From the NCBI RefSeq assembly GCF_009184865.1, contig NZ_CP045096.1:5642001-5706000 (forward strand): DNA of 64,000 bases. The letters run 5' to 3'. Within the stretch, counting starts at the first letter, position 1. Each line of letters begins with the position of its first letter. The notes under the pieces are model-generated. The model was not told the DNA's origin and made no database searches. It saw only the letters and a program-made list of their open reading frames with translations. Shown here piece after piece: positions 34,907 through 46,852 of the stretch. The stretch is from Streptomyces phaeolivaceus (lineage in GTDB: Bacteria > Actinomycetota > Actinomycetes > Streptomycetales > Streptomycetaceae). The position numbers were made by a program, and so were the translations under genes.

Positions 34907-37519
34907 ATGAGCGATACGTTCGACCGCCGCCCAGTCGACGACCCGTCCGTCACGGCCTCCGGAGCGGGGTCCGTCGCGGCGCGCGGGGACGTCGGCCTCG
35001 CGCAGACCGGGGCGGGGTCGTTCGGTGTGCACATCGACAACGCCACGCTGCTGTCGGCGGAGAGCTTTCCCGCCGCGGCTTCCGTCCACTGCCCGCAGGG
35101 TCTCGGCAACCTTCCGTCCCGCGCGCCTCTCTTCGTCGGCAGGGACCACGAACTCGGCCTCCTGGACCAGGCGTTGGTCAATCCCGGGGAGGCGGTGGTG
35201 CATGCGGTGCACGGCCTCGGCGGTATCGGCAAGTCGATGCTCGCCGCCCGCTGGGCGACCCTTCGCGGGGCGGAGTACGCGCCGGTCTGGTGGATCACCG
35301 CGGACAGCCGTGCCGCGCTCGACGCGGGCCTGGCGGCCCTGGCCGCGGCGCTCCAGCCCACGCTGGTCACACTGCTCCCGCAGGAACAACTCGGCGAGTG
35401 GGCCCGGCAGTGGCTGGCTTCCCACACCGGCTGGCTGATCGTCCTCGACAACGTCTCCGATCCGGCCGATGTCGAGCACCTCCTCGCCCGTGCGACCTCG
35501 GGCCGGTTCCTGATCACGAGCCGACGGTCGACCGGCTGGCGGAGCATGGCGCGGGAGGTGCCGCTCGATGTGCTGTCCGAAGAGGAGGCGGTCGACCTCT
35601 TCACCCGGATCAGGGGCATGGATCCGGACACGGCCGCACTCTGCGAGGAACTGGGACATCTCCCGCTGGCGGTCGCCCAGGCGGCGGCTTACTGCGTGGA
35701 AACCGGCTGCGCCGTACGCGAGTACCTGGACGACCTCGCCGCCTATCCGGCCGAGATGTACGAGGCCACGGACGAGGGCGGTGACCATCAGCGCGCCGTG
35801 GCCCGTGTCTGGCACATCACCCTGGACCGCCTCGCGGACGACCCGCTCGCGGTACGGATCCTGTTGATGCTCGCCTGGTACGCGTCCGAGGGGATTCCCC
35901 GCTCCCTGCTCGCCGCGCTCGGGACACCCCCGGCCGTACGCCGGGCCCTGCGCCGCCTCGCGGCACACAGCATGATCACGCTGCACGACGACACCGTTTC
36001 CGTGCACCGGCTGGTGCAGGCCGTCTCGCGTACGCCGGGGCAGGACGATCGTCACCGTCATGCCGACGCGATCACGGCGGCGCGGGGGGACGCGATCGCG
36101 GCACTGGCGGGGCTGATCCCCCAGGACGCCGATGCTCCGGAGGCCTGGCGGGCCGTACGGGCGGTGCTGCCGCACGTCGAGGCCCTGGCCGGGCACGGGC
36201 TGCCGGGAGCCGGTGCGGGGACGGCCGGGAGCGGTACGGAGACGGCCGGGACCGGTGCGGAGGCCGATCTGTACGTCGACACCGCCCGTCAGCTGGCGTT
36301 CTCCGGCACCCGTGCGGCGGCGCGGGCAGTCGTGTTGCTGGAGCGGGCGGAGGAGATACACACGCGAAGTGCCGGTGCCGAGGCTTCTCGGACGCTGGAG
36401 ACACGGATCGACCTCGTCCATGCCCGGAAACGGTCCGGCGACCTCGAACAGTCCGTTCCTCGCGCGGAGGCGGTGCTGGCCGACTGCGTGCGGGTGTTGG
36501 GCGAGCGACACCCCGTGACGCTGACGGCGCTCATGCGGCTGGCCAAGTCGGTCGGTTTCAGGGGGGACTCCGGGCGTGCCAAGGAACTCCTGGAGGAGGT
36601 GGTCGCGGGCCGGAGATCGGAATTCGGAGACCGGCATCCCCGGACCCTGGAGGCACGGGGCTTTCTCGCCATGGAGTTCCGGGACCACGGCGACCTCGTG
36701 TCGGTCCGCCCGAGGCTGCAACAGGTGTACGACGACTGCGTCGAGTACCTGGGCGCGGAACATCCGGTCACGCTGTCGATCCAGGGCGACCTCCTGGTGA
36801 TGTCGCCGGGATCGCGCATGCTGGAAGGGCCGCTGGGCGAGGCGCTGGTGTCCGCCTCGCTGACCGACCCCGGCCTCGACTTCGCCGATCTGATGAGCCG
36901 ATTCGACTCGGTGACCCGGTCCACCGGACTTCAGGGGCTCAAGACGGCGCTGGGATCGGAGGGGGACGTGCGGGCCGCCAAGGAGTACGTCGCCACCCAC
37001 GAGCGGGTGTACGGCAGCGACCATCCGAAGACCCTGACCGCGAGGATGTCCCTGGTCCAGGCGTACGCCTCCACCAGGGACGTCGGCCGGGTCTCCGCGG
37101 TTCTGGAGCAACTGGTGTCGGACGCCACCCAGGTGTTCGGCGGGGACGACGTCTTCGTCACCGGTGTGAACGCCATCAGAAGCATCGTCGACGCGGTCCT
37201 GTCCGAGGGCCTGGTGGACAGCGGCGAGGCCGACGATCCGGGCGCCGGAGGAGCGGAGCGCGAGGAGCTTCACCAGGGCTCCGGGGCCGAGCGCGGGCGG
37301 GACCCCGAGACCCTGGCCCGGCTGGGCGATCTGTACGGTTCGGTGCGCGAGAGCCTCGCCTCCGGCAAGTGGGACGTCGTCAGCTTCGCCGAAGCGGCGG
37401 TCGGCATGCTGAGAGTGGCGGGCGGGGCCGGTACGGCGACGGACACGGCCGGTACGGCGACGGGCGGGGCGGATGAGACGGACGGGACCGCCGACACCCG
37501 TACATCGGAAGAGAGTTGA
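34907..37519 (+). CDS. STAND NTPase: N-terminal motif, NB-ARC, TPR repeats
   Basis: The 870-residue protein starts at ATG 34907. Residues 15-35 contain VTASGAGSVAARGDVGLAQT, a short Gly/Ala motif shared with the next two genes. The NB-ARC-like NTPase (about 80-330) has P-loop GLGGIGKSMLA with Lys109, Walker B WLIVLDNVSD, sensor FLITSRR and GHLPLAVAQAAAYC (GLPL). The winged-helix region ends VHRLVQAVSR. The C-terminal 450 residues are TPR-like (SGDLEQSVPRAEAVLADCVR, GERHPVTLTAL, RHPRTLEARGFLAMEF). The architecture is that of bacterial NLR-like sensors. It probably oligomerises on ligand binding and signals through its N-terminal motif. Confidence 0.85.
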   Translation: MSDTFDRRPVDDPSVTASGAGSVAARGDVGLAQTGAGSFGVHIDNATLLSAESFPAAASVHCPQGLGNLPSRAPLFVGRDHELGLLDQALVNPGEAVVHAVHGLGGIGKSMLAARWATLRGAEYAPVWWITADSRAALDAGLAALAAALQPTLVTLLPQEQLGEWARQWLASHTGWLIVLDNVSDPADVEHLLARATSGRFLITSRRSTGWRSMAREVPLDVLSEEEAVDLFTRIRGMDPDTAALCEELGHLPLAVAQAAAYCVETGCAVREYLDDLAAYPAEMYEATDEGGDHQRAVARVWHITLDRLADDPLAVRILLMLAWYASEGIPRSLLAALGTPPAVRRALRRLAAHSMITLHDDTVSVHRLVQAVSRTPGQDDRHRHADAITAARGDAIAALAGLIPQDADAPEAWRAVRAVLPHVEALAGHGLPGAGAGTAGSGTETAGTGAEADLYVDTARQLAFSGTRAAARAVVLLERAEEIHTRSAGAEASRTLETRIDLVHARKRSGDLEQSVPRAEAVLADCVRVLGERHPVTLTALMRLAKSVGFRGDSGRAKELLEEVVAGRRSEFGDRHPRTLEARGFLAMEFRDHGDLVSVRPRLQQVYDDCVEYLGAEHPVTLSIQGDLLVMSPGSRMLEGPLGEALVSASLTDPGLDFADLMSRFDSVTRSTGLQGLKTALGSEGDVRAAKEYVATHERVYGSDHPKTLTARMSLVQAYASTRDVGRVSAVLEQLVSDATQVFGGDDVFVTGVNAIRSIVDAVLSEGLVDSGEADDPGAGGAEREELHQGSGAERGRDPETLARLGDLYGSVRESLASGKWDVVSFAEAAVGMLRVAGGAGTATDTAGTATGGADETDGTADTRTSEES

Positions 37520-37561
37520 CCGTACGTCAGTGATCGGCTCTTATCGGACGAAACTCTCCAC

Positions 37562-38056
37562 GTGAGCCTGCGCGACCGCCACAATGTCCTCATGACACTG
37601 AAGCCATGGGCGTGGGCCGGTCTCGCGACCGCCGGGGTGGGCACGGCCACGTTGGTCGGGTTCGCCTTCGTCGATCTGGGCTCGGCGGATCAGATGGCCA
37701 GTGTGGTGGGCGGATCCGCAGGGGTCATCGGGCTTGTTCTTGCCGCGATCGCGCAGTTCGGCGGATCGTCCGCCCCTCCGGCCCCTCCGGCCCCGACCCC
37801 GGCGTCGGCCCCGACCCCGGCCCCGGCCACGCCCCCGAATGTCGACGCGTCCGGCACCGGCGCGATCGCGGCCGGCGGCAACATCGGCTCGGCCTCGACC
37901 GGGGGTACGACACCACCGCCCGCGCCCGCGCCCTCGCCGACCCCGCCCGCCACCACCCCGCCCGTCGCCCCCGGCCCGAACGCGAACGTGAGCGCCTCCG
38001 GACCCGGCTCCATCGCGGCGGGCGGTGACATCGGCTCGGCGTCCACGGGAATCTGA
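37562..38056 (+). CDS. Two-helix membrane protein with duplicated signalling-like motif
   Basis: The protein has 164 residues from GTG 37562 (ATG 37592 is an alternative). Two hydrophobic helices (AWAGLATAGVGTATLVGFAF and MASVVGGSAGVIGLVLAAIA) are followed by Pro/Ala-rich spacers holding two copies of one motif: VDASGTGAIAAGGNIGSAST (about 93-112) and VSASGPGSIAAGGDIGSAST at the C-terminus. The same motif is near the N-termini of the flanking STAND proteins. The start and stop codons of this gene and the next adjoin (38056), so they are coupled. It is likely a membrane effector or anchor recruited by the STAND proteins (inference). Confidence 0.75.
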   Translation: MSLRDRHNVLMTLKPWAWAGLATAGVGTATLVGFAFVDLGSADQMASVVGGSAGVIGLVLAAIAQFGGSSAPPAPPAPTPASAPTPAPATPPNVDASGTGAIAAGGNIGSASTGGTTPPPAPAPSPTPPATTPPVAPGPNANVSASGPGSIAAGGDIGSASTGI

Positions 38057-39312
38057 TGTCTGATGGAGGCCGAGCCGGAGGGGGAGACGGGGCAAGGGCG
38101 TCGGGTGAGAGGTCGATCGCGGCGGGCGGGTCGACCGGCATGGCCTTCACCGGGGACCACGCGGCTCCGAGGTTCGCCGTCCGGGTCACGCCCCCGCTGC
38201 CCGCGGAGGCGTACGAGCTGCCCGAGCGCCCGGCCCGGACGGTCAACCTCCCGGAGAGGGTACGGCCGTTCGTGGGCAGAGAGCGTGAACTCGCCGCTCT
38301 GGACGCCACGTTCACGAACGGCGAAGGAGCGGTCGTCCGGACGGTGCACGGCTTGGGTGCCGTCGGTTGGTCGGCCCTGGCCGCCCACTGGGCCGCGGAG
38401 CGGGCGGACGCGTACAACCCCGTCTGGTGGATCACGGCGGAGACCGAAGCGGACCTGGACACGGGCCTGGCCGACCTGACGGTCGCGCTCCAGCCCGCGC
38501 TGGGCGACCTGCTGTCCCGGAAGGCGCTGCGTGACCTGGCCGTACGGTGGTTGTCCACGCACGAGCGCTGGCTCCTCGTCCTGGACAACGTCTCCGACCC
38601 GGCTCCCGTGAAGGCGCTTCTCGGCCGCGTCCCGGGCGGCCGGTTCCTGATCACGACCCGCCAGGCAGCCGGATGGGAGGAAGCCGGGGAGACGGTCCCG
38701 CTGGACGTGCCGGACCTCCCGGAAGCGGTGGAGATCTTCGAGAGCGTCCATGGCGACCCCGCCGACAGCGGATCGGCGGCCGAGACCGACGCACTCTGCC
38801 GCGAACTGGGATGTCTTCCGCCGGCCGTGCGCCAGGCGGCGGCGTACTGCCGGGAGGCGGGCATCACTCCAGGGCGGTATCGGGAGCAACTCGCCTCCCA
38901 CCCCGCGCAGTATCCGACCCAGGCGTCGGAGGGCGGACGCGCCCTCGCGAAGGTGTGGCGGGTGACCCTGGACCGGCTGGCCGGCACACCGCTCGCGGGG
39001 GAGATCTTCCGCGTGATCGCCTGGTGGGCGTCCGACGGAATCCACCGGTCGTACCTGGAGCCGCTCGGCAGCCCACCGGAAGTGACCGAGGCGATACGCC
39101 GACTGGCCGCGTACAGCATGATCACGCTGCGCGGGGACGAGATCTCGGTGCACCGACTGGTGCAGGCGGTGGCGAGAACAGCGGATCCGGCGGATCCGCA
39201 CAGGCGACCCGAAGCGCTGGCGCCGCGAAAGCGCGGCGGCGGTGCTGAGCGCCCGAGCCAACGACAAGATGTCGTCGCCGAACGAGACCCCGAGAAGCGG
39301 GAAAGGCGGTGA
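38056..39312 (+). CDS. STAND NTPase lacking the P-loop lysine and TPR region
   Basis: The 418-residue protein carries ASGERSIAAGGSTGMAFTGD near the N-terminus (the shared motif) and an NB-ARC-like region closely resembling the 34907 protein (LLVLDNVSDP, GGRFLITTRQ, GCLPPAVRQAAAYC). Its P-loop reads GLGAVGWSALA, with Trp105 in place of the catalytic Lys, so ATP binding is doubtful. After VHRLVQAVAR the sequence turns into an unrelated Arg/Glu-rich tail and stops, with no TPR domain. It may be a decayed paralogue or a regulatory pseudo-NTPase. Confidence 0.75.
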   Translation: MSDGGRAGGGDGARASGERSIAAGGSTGMAFTGDHAAPRFAVRVTPPLPAEAYELPERPARTVNLPERVRPFVGRERELAALDATFTNGEGAVVRTVHGLGAVGWSALAAHWAAERADAYNPVWWITAETEADLDTGLADLTVALQPALGDLLSRKALRDLAVRWLSTHERWLLVLDNVSDPAPVKALLGRVPGGRFLITTRQAAGWEEAGETVPLDVPDLPEAVEIFESVHGDPADSGSAAETDALCRELGCLPPAVRQAAAYCREAGITPGRYREQLASHPAQYPTQASEGGRALAKVWRVTLDRLAGTPLAGEIFRVIAWWASDGIHRSYLEPLGSPPEVTEAIRRLAAYSMITLRGDEISVHRLVQAVARTADPADPHRRPEALAPRKRGGGAERPSQRQDVVAERDPEKRERR

Positions 39313-39624: not shown

Positions 39625-40560
39625 GTGACCGTTCTCCTGCTCCTTCTCGTCGCCGTGGCGCTGACCGCCGCGGTGCTGGGCCCCCGTGCGCTGCTGAAGG
39701 CGGTGTGGCCCGAGCGGGAACCCGTGGTCGCGCTGTGGGTGTGGCAGTGCCTGGTGGCGGCGGCGCTGCTGAGCTGTCTCGCGGCGCTGGTGCTGGGCGC
39801 GGCGGCGGTGTTCGAGACGGTGCGTACGCACGCCTTCGCGCCCGCGCCCCCGGCCGTGACCGCCGCGTACGACCTCACGGCCGCGCCGCCCTGGACGGCC
39901 GTACTGACGCTGGCGCTGGCCCTGGGGGCGGCGTGGAGCGGGGCGATGCTGGCCCGGGAACTGGTCGAGGCGCGGCGCCGGCGGCAGCTGCGCCGTGCGC
40001 ATCTGCGGGAGCGCGCCCCCGACCTCCCGGCGGGCCTGCCGCAGGCGAAGGGGCCGCTGCTGGTGCTGGAGGACGAGTACCCCGACGCGTGGCTGATGCC
40101 GGGCGCTCCGCCCCGACTGGTCGTCACCACGGGCGCGTTGGGCAAGCTGAGTGACCGTCAGCTGGATGCCGTGCTCGCCCATGAACTTGGCCACGCCCGT
40201 GCCCGCCACGACTGGCTGCTCCACCTCTCCACCGCCCTCGCCACGGGTTTCCCGCGCATCCCCCTCTTCGCCCACTTCGCCGACCAGACCCACCGCCTGG
40301 TCGAACTCGCCGCCGACGACACGGCCTCGCGCCGCTGCGGCCACCTCACCACGGCGCTCGCCCTCATCGAGCTCAATCAGCACCGGGGCGTGCTGAGCTG
40401 CTCCAACACCCGCCGTCTGCTGGGCGACCGGGTGGAACGGCTGCTGGAACCGCCGCCCCGCCTGGACCGCACCCACCGCGCGGCCACCACGACCGCCGCC
40501 GCGCTCCTGGCCCTCCTCCCGCTGCTGATCGCGTTCGCCCCGGCGCTGGGGACGCTCTAG
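39625..40560 (+). CDS. M56-family (BlaR1-like) membrane metallopeptidase
   Basis: The 311-residue protein starts at GTG 39625. It has N-terminal hydrophobic helices, a cytosolic zincin domain with HELGH (His186, Glu187, His190) and the third ligand region VELAADDTASRRCG, then a C-terminal helix. This fits the M56 family, common beside BlaI-type regulators in Streptomyces, but no BlaI gene is adjacent here. It shares its stop with the convergent hydrolase gene in the palindrome CTAG. Confidence 0.88.
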   Translation: MTVLLLLLVAVALTAAVLGPRALLKAVWPEREPVVALWVWQCLVAAALLSCLAALVLGAAAVFETVRTHAFAPAPPAVTAAYDLTAAPPWTAVLTLALALGAAWSGAMLARELVEARRRRQLRRAHLRERAPDLPAGLPQAKGPLLVLEDEYPDAWLMPGAPPRLVVTTGALGKLSDRQLDAVLAHELGHARARHDWLLHLSTALATGFPRIPLFAHFADQTHRLVELAADDTASRRCGHLTTALALIELNQHRGVLSCSNTRRLLGDRVERLLEPPPRLDRTHRAATTTAAALLALLPLLIAFAPALGTL

Positions 40561-41363
40561 GCGACGCCGCCGAGGAACTCCAGCAGGGCGCCCGTCAGTT
40601 CGGCGGGCGCGTCCTCCTGGACGAGGTGTCCCGCCCCGGCGATCGGGACGAACCGCGCCCCCGGAATCCGGTCGGCCAGCTCCCGCCCCTTGGCGATCGG
40701 GATCCAGCCGTCCGCCTCGCCCCAGCACACCAGCACCGGAATGCCGATCTCCCCGTAGCGTTCCTGGATCTCGTCCGTGTGGGCCTGGTCCGCCTGGGCG
40801 ATCTGCCGGTAGAAGGCGGGCTGACCGTCCTCGCCGAGCCATGGCTCCACGAGCCGGTCGAGAACGGCCGGGTGCAGACCGGGACCACTCGCGGAACTCA
40901 CGTACTCCCTCGCCAGGGCCCGGTGCAGCGCGGGCGGCAGCTGTTCGAAGACCTCGGCGTGGCGGCCGAGCAGCCGGAAGGAAGGGGAGCCCCAGGGGGC
41001 GAGTGCCACGGGGTCGACGAGGGCGAGGGCGCGGTAGCGGGCCCCGTGCAGCAGACGCGCCCGCAGCGACACGGCTCCACCGAAGTCATGGGCCACCACC
41101 AGCGGCTCGTCCAGCCCCCAGTGCGCCAGCAGCTCGGTGAAGACCCGCCCCTGCGCGGCCAGGGACACGTCCTGCCCGGCTGCCTTCTCCGACGCCCCGT
41201 ACCCGGGCATGTCCCACACGAACACCCGGTACCGGCCGGTCCCGGCCAGCCCGCGCGCCACGCCCCGCCAGACGTACGACGAGAAGGGCGTGCCGTGCAG
41301 CAGGACGACCGGCTCCCGGCCGGGTTCCCCGACCACACCCCACCGCACGTCCCCGGACGACAT
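40557..41363 (-). CDS. Alpha/beta-fold hydrolase
   Basis: The 268-residue protein starts at ATG 41363 (MSSGDVRWGVVGEPGREPVV). It has the oxyanion region VVLLHGTPFSS, a DFGGAVS segment at the nucleophile elbow (VVAHDFGGAVSLRARLLHG) where Asp replaces Ser as in dehalogenase/epoxide-hydrolase relatives, and a late CWGEADGWIP acid plus GAGHLVQEDAP His. It is likely a haloalkane-dehalogenase- or epoxide-hydrolase-like enzyme. Its start codon lies exactly where a STAND-gene fragment on the other strand begins, so its original upstream region may be lost. Confidence 0.88.
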   Translation of the reverse strand: MSSGDVRWGVVGEPGREPVVLLHGTPFSSYVWRGVARGLAGTGRYRVFVWDMPGYGASEKAAGQDVSLAAQGRVFTELLAHWGLDEPLVVAHDFGGAVSLRARLLHGARYRALALVDPVALAPWGSPSFRLLGRHAEVFEQLPPALHRALAREYVSSASGPGLHPAVLDRLVEPWLGEDGQPAFYRQIAQADQAHTDEIQERYGEIGIPVLVCWGEADGWIPIAKGRELADRIPGARFVPIAGAGHLVQEDAPAELTGALLEFLGGVA

Positions 41364-42465
41364 CCCCAGGGCGTATCTGACGGGGATCGGCGGCGAGTTG
41401 GAGGTGACCGAGGCCGTACGGCGGCTGGCGGCGCACAGCATGATCACGGTGCGCGGGGAGCTGCTGTCGGTGCATCGGCTGGTGCAGGCCGTGAGCCGGG
41501 CGGGGGAGCCTCAGGAGGTGATCGCCCGCCGGGACCATGCCGTGGCGATGCTGGTCCGACACCAACCGGATGCCCTCGTCGACATCGACGAGGGACGGCT
41601 GTGGGCGATCCATGTCGAAGCCCTCGGCGAGTGTGTAGAAGAGGAGTCCGACACCGAAGCCCTCACGTCGCTCTTCGCCCAGGCGGCAGCGCTTCTCGCG
41701 CACGGATACTCCCGGAGGAGCGTCGCGCTGGCCGACCGGTTCGGGCGAGCCGTCGCGAGCCATCCGGAATGGGAGGCCGGGGACCTGGTGCGCCGTACTC
41801 TGCTCCCCGTCTACACCCTCAATGGTGAACCGAGCCGAGCGGTCCCTCTGGCCGAGTACCAGCTGGGCTTGAGGAAGGCGACGCTGGGTGAGGGGCACCC
41901 GAAGACGATCGAGGCGCTCATCTCGCTCGCGAAGGTCGTGCGGTACGCCGGCTCCGAACGCGCTCGGAGCGTGGCCGAGCAGGCGGTCGAGACCGCGACC
42001 GGCGCCCTGGGGCCGGATCACCTGCTCACGTTCAAGGCCGAGTCGACTCTTCGAGACATCACCGAGCAACGATTGGATGTGCCCGCCCTTGAGACCCTGC
42101 TCAAGAGGGCGACCCGGCTGTTCGGTGCGGACCACATTGTGAGCACAGAGCTGCGGTACGAACTTGTCGTCGCGTTGGCCGGTGCGGGAGAACCGGGCCG
42201 AGCGGCAGCGCTGGCGGAGATGGCCGCTCGGCGTTGCGGAGCGGTCCTCGGAGCCGCCGATCTGCGGACACTGTCCTTCCGGGTGATACATCTCAGCCTG
42301 GTGGCGCAGACGGGCGACATCGCCCGTGCCCGTGAGCTGCTACCTCAGATCGTTGCCGACTTCAAAGGGCATTTCGTTCAGGAACCGGACGATCGTGGCC
42401 TGCTCGGTCGAATCACCCTCATGTTCGACGAGTTGGTGGACCTGATATCCGGCTTCCCAGCGTGA
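41356..42465 (+). pseudogene. STAND NTPase remnant: winged-helix/TPR part only
   Basis: From about 41356 the frame reads DDIPRAYL, then VTEAVRRLAAHSMITVRGEL and SVHRLVQAVSR, matching the region after the NTPase domain in the two upstream STAND genes. About 330 residues of TPR-like helices follow (GEPSRAVPLAEYQLGLRKAT, LGEGHPKTIEALISLAKVV). The NTPase domain and start codon are missing. In-frame GTG 41404 or ATG 41440 could allow translation of the fragment. It appears to be a tandem paralogue whose 5' half was deleted. Confidence 0.75.
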
Positions 42466-45571: not shown

Positions 45572-46852
45572 GTGGGCCTTGTCGTGCAGAAGTACGGAGG
45601 CTCCTCCGTAGCCGATGCCGAGGGCATCAAGCGCGTCGCCAAGCGGATCGTGGAAGCGAAGAAGAACGGCCACCAAGTGGTCGTCGTCGTTTCCGCGATG
45701 GGCGACACGACGGACGAGCTGATCGATCTCGCCGAGCAGGTGTCACCGATGCCTGCCGGGCGTGAGTTCGACATGCTGCTGACCGCCGGAGAGCGGATCT
45801 CCATGGCGCTGCTGGCCATGGCGATCAAGAACCTGGGCCACGAGGCCCAGTCGTTCACCGGCAGCCAGGCAGGCGTCATCACCGACTCGGTCCACAACAA
45901 AGCCCGGATCATCGACGTCACACCCGGCCGCATCCGGACCGCGCTGGACGAGGGCAACATCGCCATCGTCGCCGGTTTCCAGGGTGTCAGCGCGGACAAG
46001 AAGGACATCACCACCCTCGGGCGCGGCGGGTCGGACACGACCGCCGTCGCGCTGGCCGCCGCGCTGGAGGCCGAGGTCTGTGAGATCTACACCGACGTCG
46101 ACGGAGTCTTCACCGCCGACCCGCGGGTCGTGAAGAAGGCCCGGAAGATCGACTGGATCTCCTCCGAGGACATGCTCGAACTGGCCGCGTCCGGTTCGAA
46201 GGTGCTGCTCCACCGCTGTGTGGAGTACGCCCGCCGCTACGACATCCCGATCCACGTCCGCTCGTCCTTCTCCGGACTGCCGGGCACCTGGGTCAGCAAC
46301 GAGAAGCCCGAGTCGCAAGGGGACCACAAGGTGGAGCACGCCATCATCTCCGGAGTCGCCCACGACGTCTCCGAGGCCAAGGTCACGGTCGTCGGCGTCC
46401 CGGACAAGCCGGGCGAGGCCGCCGCGATCTTCCGCGCCATCGCGGACGCCGAGGTCAACATCGACATGGTGGTGCAGAACGTCTCCGCCGTGACGACCGG
46501 GCTGACGGACATCTCCTTCACCCTCCCCAAGACCGAGGGCCGCAAGGCCATCGACGCCCTGGAGAAGAACAAGGCCGGCATCGGCTTCGACTCCCTGCGC
46601 TACGACGACCAGATCGGCAAGATCTCCCTGGTCGGCGCGGGGATGAAGACCAACCCGGGCGTCACCGCCTCCTTCTTCGAGGCCCTGTCCGACGCGGGCG
46701 TGAACATCGAGCTGATCTCGACCTCCGAGATCCGAATCTCGGTCGTCACCCGCGCCGACGACGTCCCCGAGGCCGTGCGTGCCGTGCACTCCGCCTTCGG
46801 ACTCGACTCCGACAGCGACGAGGCCGTCGTCTACGGGGGTACCGGTCGATGA
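45572..46852 (+). CDS. lysC: Aspartokinase
   Basis: The 426-residue enzyme starts at GTG 45572 behind GAGGAG ([20 protein letters not shown]). The kinase domain has [41 protein letters not shown] and [15 protein letters not shown]. The C-terminal regulatory part has two ACT domains ([20 protein letters not shown] and the [19 protein letters not shown] segment). It phosphorylates aspartate, the first step to lysine, threonine, methionine and diaminopimelate, and is normally feedback-inhibited by Lys and Thr. It lies 114 bp upstream of asd, the next enzyme in the pathway. Confidence 0.97.

Follow-up and report, generated by a model that had tools for sequence, protein, structure and literature searches.

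Does a short motif shared by neighboring proteins of a Streptomyces chromosome join them in one signaling pathway? The question is raised by a stretch of 64,000 nucleotides from Streptomyces phaeolivaceus (NCBI RefSeq assembly GCF_009184865.1, contig NZ_CP045096.1, positions 5,642,001 to 5,706,000 of the forward strand), hereafter called the window and numbered from its first nucleotide. Downstream of recR and a DUF5063 gene, three co-directional genes form a cassette encoding an 870-residue STAND protein (STAND 1), a small membrane protein and a 418-residue protein (STAND 2). Each STAND protein has one copy of the motif V.ASG.GS[IV]AAGGDIG.A.TG close to its N-terminus, and the membrane protein has two in its tail. 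Dozens of related genomes were found to have the same pairing. This suggests activation of the membrane protein by the sensors via the shared motif, by a route like that of fungal prion-like immune signaling. The cassette is likely an immune signalosome of the NOD-like receptor (NLR) type, with an amyloid-type motif and a two-helix effector in place of the Bell domain. This interpretation is carried by the shared motif, its near restriction to nucleoside triphosphatases (NTPases) and small effectors, the adjacency of their genes, tandem copies on the effector and single copies on the sensor, purifying selection on the motif, its co-variation within pairs and a predicted membrane hairpin.

A motif largely restricted to NTPases and small effectors

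The initial annotation had placed four motif copies in two STAND proteins and in the tail of a small membrane protein encoded between open reading frames (ORFs) of 870 and 418 residues. Both the ORFs and the copies were confirmed. The copies read SVTASGAGSVAARGDVGLAQTGA, NVDASGTGAIAAGGNIGSASTGG, NVSASGPGSIAAGGDIGSASTGI and GARASGERSIAAGGSTGMAFTGD, and exactly four matches at E<=0.05, all in the cassette, were found in the 10.2-Mb genome (weakest E=2.6e-8) with a 23-column profile, a search that was partly circular because the window's own copies are among its 15 training rows. A held-out, non-circular profile, built from 66 copies that all come from two-helix effectors of other genomes, finds the same four places. 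It scores 30.5 bits at the STAND 2 N-terminus and 22.7 bits at that of STAND 1, and at best 4.4 bits on the other ORFs of the window (629 stop-to-stop ORFs of at least 50 residues scored). When sequences were shuffled 5000 times each, the maximum was 8.0 bits for the N-terminus of the 870-residue protein, 10.4 bits for that of the 418-residue protein and 10.2 bits for the effector tail.

Among 392 genomes of the same genus, the motif is present in at least 58, the window's own included (E<=0.001); with 22 candidates scored per genome the counts are lower bounds, and the weakest matches were neither listed nor fetched. For gene context we used 80 fetched stretches plus the window, 55 of them around every cluster listed in the genus-wide scan and 25 gathered beforehand, and 16 named loci of one further set were left out of every count. 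A census of ORFs of at least 50 residues with a motif of at least 20 bits yielded 107 proteins. Of these, 43 are NB-ARC STANDs akin to the window's own and 39 are two-helix effectors; a further 14 show a P-loop pattern, 5 are helical effectors, and the remaining 6 are short remnants or two-helix ORFs of a related kind. Effector class was assigned by a sequence-pattern rule, and an apparently broken effector in L102 was left unclassed. Since the carriers look like P-loop NTPases, small effectors or remnants, the motif is not a general low-complexity feature. The initial annotation had allowed that the motif might turn up in many unrelated low-complexity proteins with no STAND linkage; this was looked for and did not occur among the 107 ORFs. 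Together with the held-out profile and the shuffles, their make-up led us to reject chance and low complexity as explanations.

The 14 proteins with other P-loops were classed by their Walker A pattern, and seven of them were also run against Pfam, which gave mixed support. A clear NACHT domain was found in L132, weak NACHT, NB-ARC or nSTAND3 matches in L023, L131, L134 and L028, and a weak NPHP3_N match in L150; L139, L146, L147, L149 and L151 gave either TPR or Sel1 repeats alone or no match. L153, an apparent exception with its motif at residue 725, has the motif directly before a P-loop. Some matches fall below 20 bits and thus outside the 107: a small membrane protein accounts for two (L071, L074), and L073 and part of a helical effector (L070) for one each. 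More distant genera (G063, G066, G080, G089 and others) gave weak, mostly partial matches of about 17–21 bits, whose context was not fetched.

The gene of STAND 1 occupies positions 34907..37519 on the + strand and encodes a motif leader, an NB-ARC NTPase and TPR repeats. Its motif copy, SVTASGAGSVAARGDVGLAQTGA, lies at 34946..35014 (+), and its intact Walker A, GLGGIGKS, at 35213-35236 (+). Pfam gave 23.7 bits for NB-ARC (cutoff 23.5) and 52.5 bits for TPR_12, and with the intact Walker A the protein classifies as a STAND/NLR. Its best NCBIfam match is NF040586 (FxSxx_TPR), and the protein could on that ground be the TPR component of an FxSxx-COOH system, of the type of ribosomally synthesized and post-translationally modified peptides. 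This origin is most improbable: the match, 291.2 bits, falls below the curated cutoff of 300, STAND 2 reaches 153.1 bits, and we rejected membership on the cutoff.

STAND 2 (38056..39312, +) starts within the effector stop codon, the two sharing one base (TGATG), and carries the motif copy GARASGERSIAAGGSTGMAFTGD at 38089..38157 (+). No Pfam NB-ARC match and no TPR match were found in it, so that it does not classify as a STAND/NLR. Its Walker A at 38350-38373 (+) reads GLGAVGWS, against GLGGIGKS in STAND 1, and the replacement of Lys by Trp indicates that it is probably not an active NTPase. The closest intact relative among those examined is the downstream STAND of L022, which is 57% identical over 387 alignment columns and has an intact Walker A. 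The 418-residue protein, which the initial annotation had proposed as a second STAND partner, looks degenerate in this genome. The rest of the proposed architecture, an NLR-like sensor with one N-terminal motif copy and a membrane effector with tandem C-terminal copies encoded by adjacent genes, is strongly supported by comparative genomics. The working unit in the window is probably STAND 1 and the effector; STAND 2 is probably a degenerate copy, a relic or at most a dominant-negative modulator.

The two-helix effector and its partners

The membrane protein is encoded at 37592..38056 (+), from an ATG at 37592 that gives 154 residues; an in-frame GTG at 37562 is also possible and would give 164. 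AlphaFold2 predicted helices at residues 5-27 and 34-60, which coincide with hydropathy peaks and correspond to putative membrane helices at 37604..37672 and 37691..37771 (+), and three short beta strands in each motif copy. An alignment of 37 effectors and their charge pattern agree with a two-helix hairpin followed by a tail. Averaged over 41 relatives with the window, the segment ahead of helix 1 has a net charge of +1.7 and the loop between the helices one of −1.8, so both ends of the protein, and hence the motif tail, should face the cytosol. In the tail, copy 1 (NVDASGTGAIAAGGNIGSASTG, 37838..37903, +) and copy 2 (NVSASGPGSIAAGGDIGSASTG, 37985..38050, +), which ends one residue short of the stop, are set in Pro-rich linkers, 85% of which consist of Pro, Ala, Ser, Thr and Gly.

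The protein matched no Pfam family at E<=1, including no SLATT model, no PDB fold at E<=10 and, in NCBIfam, only GltJ weakly (13.2 bits against a cutoff of 450). Neither it nor its relative in L106 had a PHROG match at E<=0.1; another relative, in L133, weakly matched a holin PHROG (E=0.026). Homologues form at least 78 protein clusters among 7998 candidates scored, and the names shown, from Streptomyces and Kitasatospora, are mostly hypothetical protein. In two of the 78 clusters a YadA-head domain (PF05658) had been precomputed. A possible, if unlikely, alternative is that the motif acts as a homotypic clasp without forming amyloid, for example as a small beta-roll or a trimer comparable to YadA heads. 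It would then only tether the STAND protein to the membrane, with the two-helix protein as an anchor or scaffold, and the activity would reside in the STAND or in another partner. The Gly-, Ala- and Ser-rich composition and the three short strands predicted per copy are compatible with it, as these data fit amyloid and other beta assemblies alike.

Copy number bears on this alternative as well. Among 41 two-helix effectors, 37 have two motif copies, three have three and one has a single copy, so that tandem copies occur in 40/41, whereas 66 of 67 motif ORFs of at least 470 residues have only one. Tandem copies that occur almost only on two-helix effectors fit templating, a point weakened by the helical effectors described below, which are single-copy in 8/8. 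The distance from the end of the motif to Walker A has a median of 64 residues (51 measured). In a comparison restricted to copies with a length of exactly 23 residues (31 effectors and 43 NTPases; for pairs, 33 from 27 loci), the ratio of non-synonymous to synonymous polymorphism (pN/pS) was 0.39 for the last effector copy, 0.45 for the first, 0.57 for the NTPase copy and 0.69 for the helix hairpin. The motif is therefore under purifying selection and more constrained than the membrane part.

The initial annotation had proposed looking for adjacent pairs of motif NTPases and small membrane proteins in other actinobacteria, and such pairs were found. With the window included, a motif NTPase lies within 4 kb of 30 of the 41 two-helix effectors, on the same strand in 30/30 cases, and six of the 41 have two such NTPases, as in the window. 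Other NTPases were also found beside two-helix effectors: a NACHT-HEAT protein in L024, an nSTAND5-TPR protein in L133 (with a leader that no more than resembles the motif), TPR proteins scoring weakly for NB-ARC in L131 and L134, and a protein of 1447 residues with a sub-threshold NACHT score in L023; in L026, a remoter two-helix relative is followed by a NACHT-HEAT protein. Eight proteins of other loci were run against PADLOC, with a strong STAND_TPR match for L023, weak matches for three and none for four. Some genomes combine a single listed effector locus with several motif NTPases elsewhere: in G267, motif ORFs of 940, 718, 731 and 739 residues lie away from the one effector locus listed, and one effector may thus serve several scattered sensors.

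Some further proteins resemble these partners. A related tag (GERSVGAAGDVKAAATGDNS, GERSVGAGGNVGAAATGD) is found at the N-terminus of NACHT-HEAT proteins in L066 and L132 (and, by resemblance, L067), whose fetched stretches showed no effector bearing the motif. A 90-residue ORF, L107:7808-8077, looks like a decayed second effector, with one helix and one copy, beside an intact one. Another two-helix type with the variant motifs GDNSGVIITGD and GDNTGTVSTGD adjoins NB-ARC STAND homologues in L064:5996-6322, L137 and L140:16212-17582, and is possibly a further effector class. In L103 and L122 the two-helix effector is kept at its usual site, where no motif NTPase turned up within 4 kb. This suggests that the unactivated protein does no harm.

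A second effector family has about 105 helical residues, predicted as five helices, with a related motif at the C-terminus; a motif NTPase is adjacent in 7/8 cases. When the helical domain alone was used as query, 19 of 100 relatives were positive and their tails were divergent. A fold search, in which a HeLo or MLKL-type match was sought, returned nothing significant, and a second look gave generic bundles only. Likeness to the Bell domain, judged by its published description (PMC7889193), is a lead. The swap of a two-helix for a helical effector with the same kind of motif fits an exchange of effectors better than the anchoring considered above.

Motif co-variation was examined in both families. 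For helical effectors, 28 ORFs less 2 duplicates and 9 without an NTPase found by rule left 17 pairs (the rule missed the G071:C407 pair); the tail scored a mean of 57.7 against the leader of its own NTPase and 41.2 in other pairings. The own-pair value was reached in 0/20,000 permutations, a test that leaves shared ancestry in. An earlier set of ten hand-picked helical pairs, from which the readable L118, L123, L140, L154 and L210 were left out, gave 65.5 and 40.5 (0/20,000). Within two-helix cassettes co-variation is present, and weaker than in the helical pairs: identity is 0.63 for own and 0.60 for other partners (permutation p 0.012; partial Mantel r 0.25, p 0.006), with the same 23-residue restriction, owing to which the copy compared was not the last one in a few loci. 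Matched examples are APITTGDHSPI on both effector and NTPase in G071, and GILSTGDNATNV/GILSSGDNATNV in G070. In L200, from another genus-level lineage, the helical effector ends in GERVAVIGSNTGVVQQGDNS and the following NTPase has the leader GERAAIIGENRGITQQGDNA; this pair extends the pairing logic to a clearly different motif variant.

Several observations weigh against an amyloid-type signalosome built on these pairs. Shared ancestry stays in all of the pair permutation tests. Among the 17 helical pairs, the own partner ranks first in no more than 3/17 rows and 6/17 columns, and L060, L154, L210, L218 and L219 fall below their row median. Eleven of the 41 two-helix effectors fail the strict neighbor rule: six of them (L021, L121, L023, L126, L024, L133) were seen on inspection to be flanked by an NTPase, part of an NTPase or a remnant of the motif, with the NTPase of L024 on the opposite strand, and the search within 4 kb gave no motif NTPase for L027, L103, L122, L127 and L136 (that of L127 is about 5.4 kb away); among helical effectors, L114 misses with a remnant only. 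Conversely, many motif NTPases (L138, L139, L143-L152 and others) have no motif-bearing effector in the fetched stretch. The effector sample was picked via the motif and is not independent of it. The AlphaFold2 model of the effector has a mean local confidence (pLDDT) of 72 and a low overall score (pTM 0.31), so that only its local elements were used. PADLOC 2023 gave 0 families at E<=0.1 for the three cassette proteins and the TPR fragment described below.

Proposed mechanism and chromosomal setting

By analogy with fungal HET-s and bacterial amyloid signaling systems, from which the polymer, the membrane effect and the trigger are taken, the cassette might work as follows. The TPR region of STAND 1 would sense a trigger, such as phage or another non-self cue, and its NB-ARC NTPase would oligomerize, thereby clustering the single N-terminal motifs. 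These could seed an amyloid-like fibre of beta-arches, onto which both motif copies in the cytosolic tail of the effector would be templated. As the tails pack, the hairpins might be pulled together in the membrane, which would be depolarized or opened, and the loss of membrane integrity would stop or kill the infected hyphal compartment. The amyloid templating, the order of oligomerization, the membrane damage, the cell death and the trigger are thus inferred from the model systems. A broader proposal is that a modular death-signaling network exists in actinobacteria, in which a beta-arch motif superfamily is the sole fixed part, into which several NTPase classes (NB-ARC-TPR, NACHT-HEAT and other sensors) and two effector types (the holin-like two-helix hairpin and a helical Bell-like bundle) plug, the hairpin being a new effector class; we regard this proposal as evenly balanced between true and false.

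The chromosomal setting raises another explanation, namely that the STAND protein relays a growth or sporulation cue as a developmental or metabolic regulator. The site is fixed: recR, DUF5063 or aspartate kinase genes are in the fetched stretch at 30 of the 41 two-helix loci. By sequence string, an SsgA-family sporulation/cell-division gene lies near the cassette in 3/41 (L021:6054-6467, L022 and L115), confirmed by Pfam in L021 (95.1 bits), and the NB-ARC region of STAND 1 weakly resembles AfsR (38.8 bits, cutoff 1430). Nevertheless, the motif is patchy (at least 58/392 genomes), the STANDs are missing or decayed at the same site in L021, L103, L121 and L122 and in STAND 2 of the window, and NTPase classes have been exchanged. 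As these features are typical of conflict systems and not of core regulators, a regulatory role is quite improbable. The DUF5063 gene was present in 54 of 61 relatives tested, and hence the neighbor gene is widely conserved and the cassette patchy.

Further downstream in the window, the aspartate kinase gene (45572-46852) lies about 6 kb beyond the cassette, with a peptidase, a hydrolase, a STAND fragment and others in between. An M48-type peptidase gene (39625-40560, +) and an alpha/beta hydrolase gene (40557-41447, −) separate STAND 2 from this orphan fragment; in L127, a hydrolase ORF that looks related is located about 1 kb away from the effector. The fragment is a 442-residue ORF (41137-42465, +) that represents the C-terminal half, with winged helix and TPR and without an NTPase domain, of a third, more distant STAND; aligned over 386 columns with the corresponding half of the L022 STAND, it shows 34% identity.

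Comparison with known signaling systems

Bacterial amyloid signaling motifs (BASS) comprise ten families, which were found by comparing Bell and NLR neighbors (PMC7889193; PMC9815663). Bell is a helical bundle, and CHAT and TIR effectors form a minority in BASS systems (PMC7889193; PMC9815663). As in these systems, a short motif in our cassette is found at the N-terminus of an NLR and at the C-terminus of an adjacent small effector, the genes are adjacent or overlapping, the hosts are multicellular actinobacteria, and the motif is rich in Gly, Ala, Ser, Val and Ile. Gly, Ala (at times grouped with Ser) and Val/Ile have symbols in the published BASS grammars (PMC8086366), which fits the composition of the window motif; a later detector of amyloid signaling motifs is ASMscan (PMC12261475). 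Unlike Bell, with which it was compared by description only, the window effector is a predicted two-helix hairpin and not an alpha-helical bundle, and its relatives carry tandem motif copies in nearly all cases, although repeats on the Bell side are described as fairly common for BASS4 (PMC8086366). As described, the BASS search began from Bell neighbors, and two-helix effectors would thus not have been its target. We file the system as working like a BASS signalosome but, by predicted structure, without the Bell feature.

The available portions of PMC8195603, PMC7885112 and PMC10907252 hold nothing on a two-helix effector, and none with such a motif was found among titles and abstract openings, which did not cover Dyrka et al. 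2020. If the proposed function is correct, bacterial amyloid immunity would be widened from Bell-domain effectors to a minimal two-helix membrane effector, and the matched and mismatched motif pairs of the cassettes would form a natural series in which specificity and cross-talk could be studied.

Phage holins have the shape of a two-helix hairpin with a short loop. This shape and the weak match of L133 are what the effectors share with them; in contrast, neither the window effector nor that of L106 matched a PHROG. SLATT proteins are also small, with two transmembrane helices, and are predicted pore-forming effectors of NTP-dependent conflict systems (PMC7159879). They are predicted to respond to nucleotide signals rather than to a shared motif, and we rejected membership of the window effector since Pfam gave it no match at E<=1.

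The closest parallel in arrangement comes from the fungus Podospora anserina. There, HET-s is a membrane-active effector with a HeLo domain, and NWD2 is the neighboring NLR. The window effector has a predicted two-helix hairpin in place of HeLo, and the likeness is one of arrangement, with no sequence relation found. In both cases two repeats lie on the effector (r1 and r2 in HET-s) and one at the N-terminus of the neighboring NLR (r0) (PMC8086366). If the interpretation holds, the cassette would provide a case near fungal HET-s in logic, with the same two-to-one distribution of repeats between effector and receptor, within a bacterial genus amenable to genetics.

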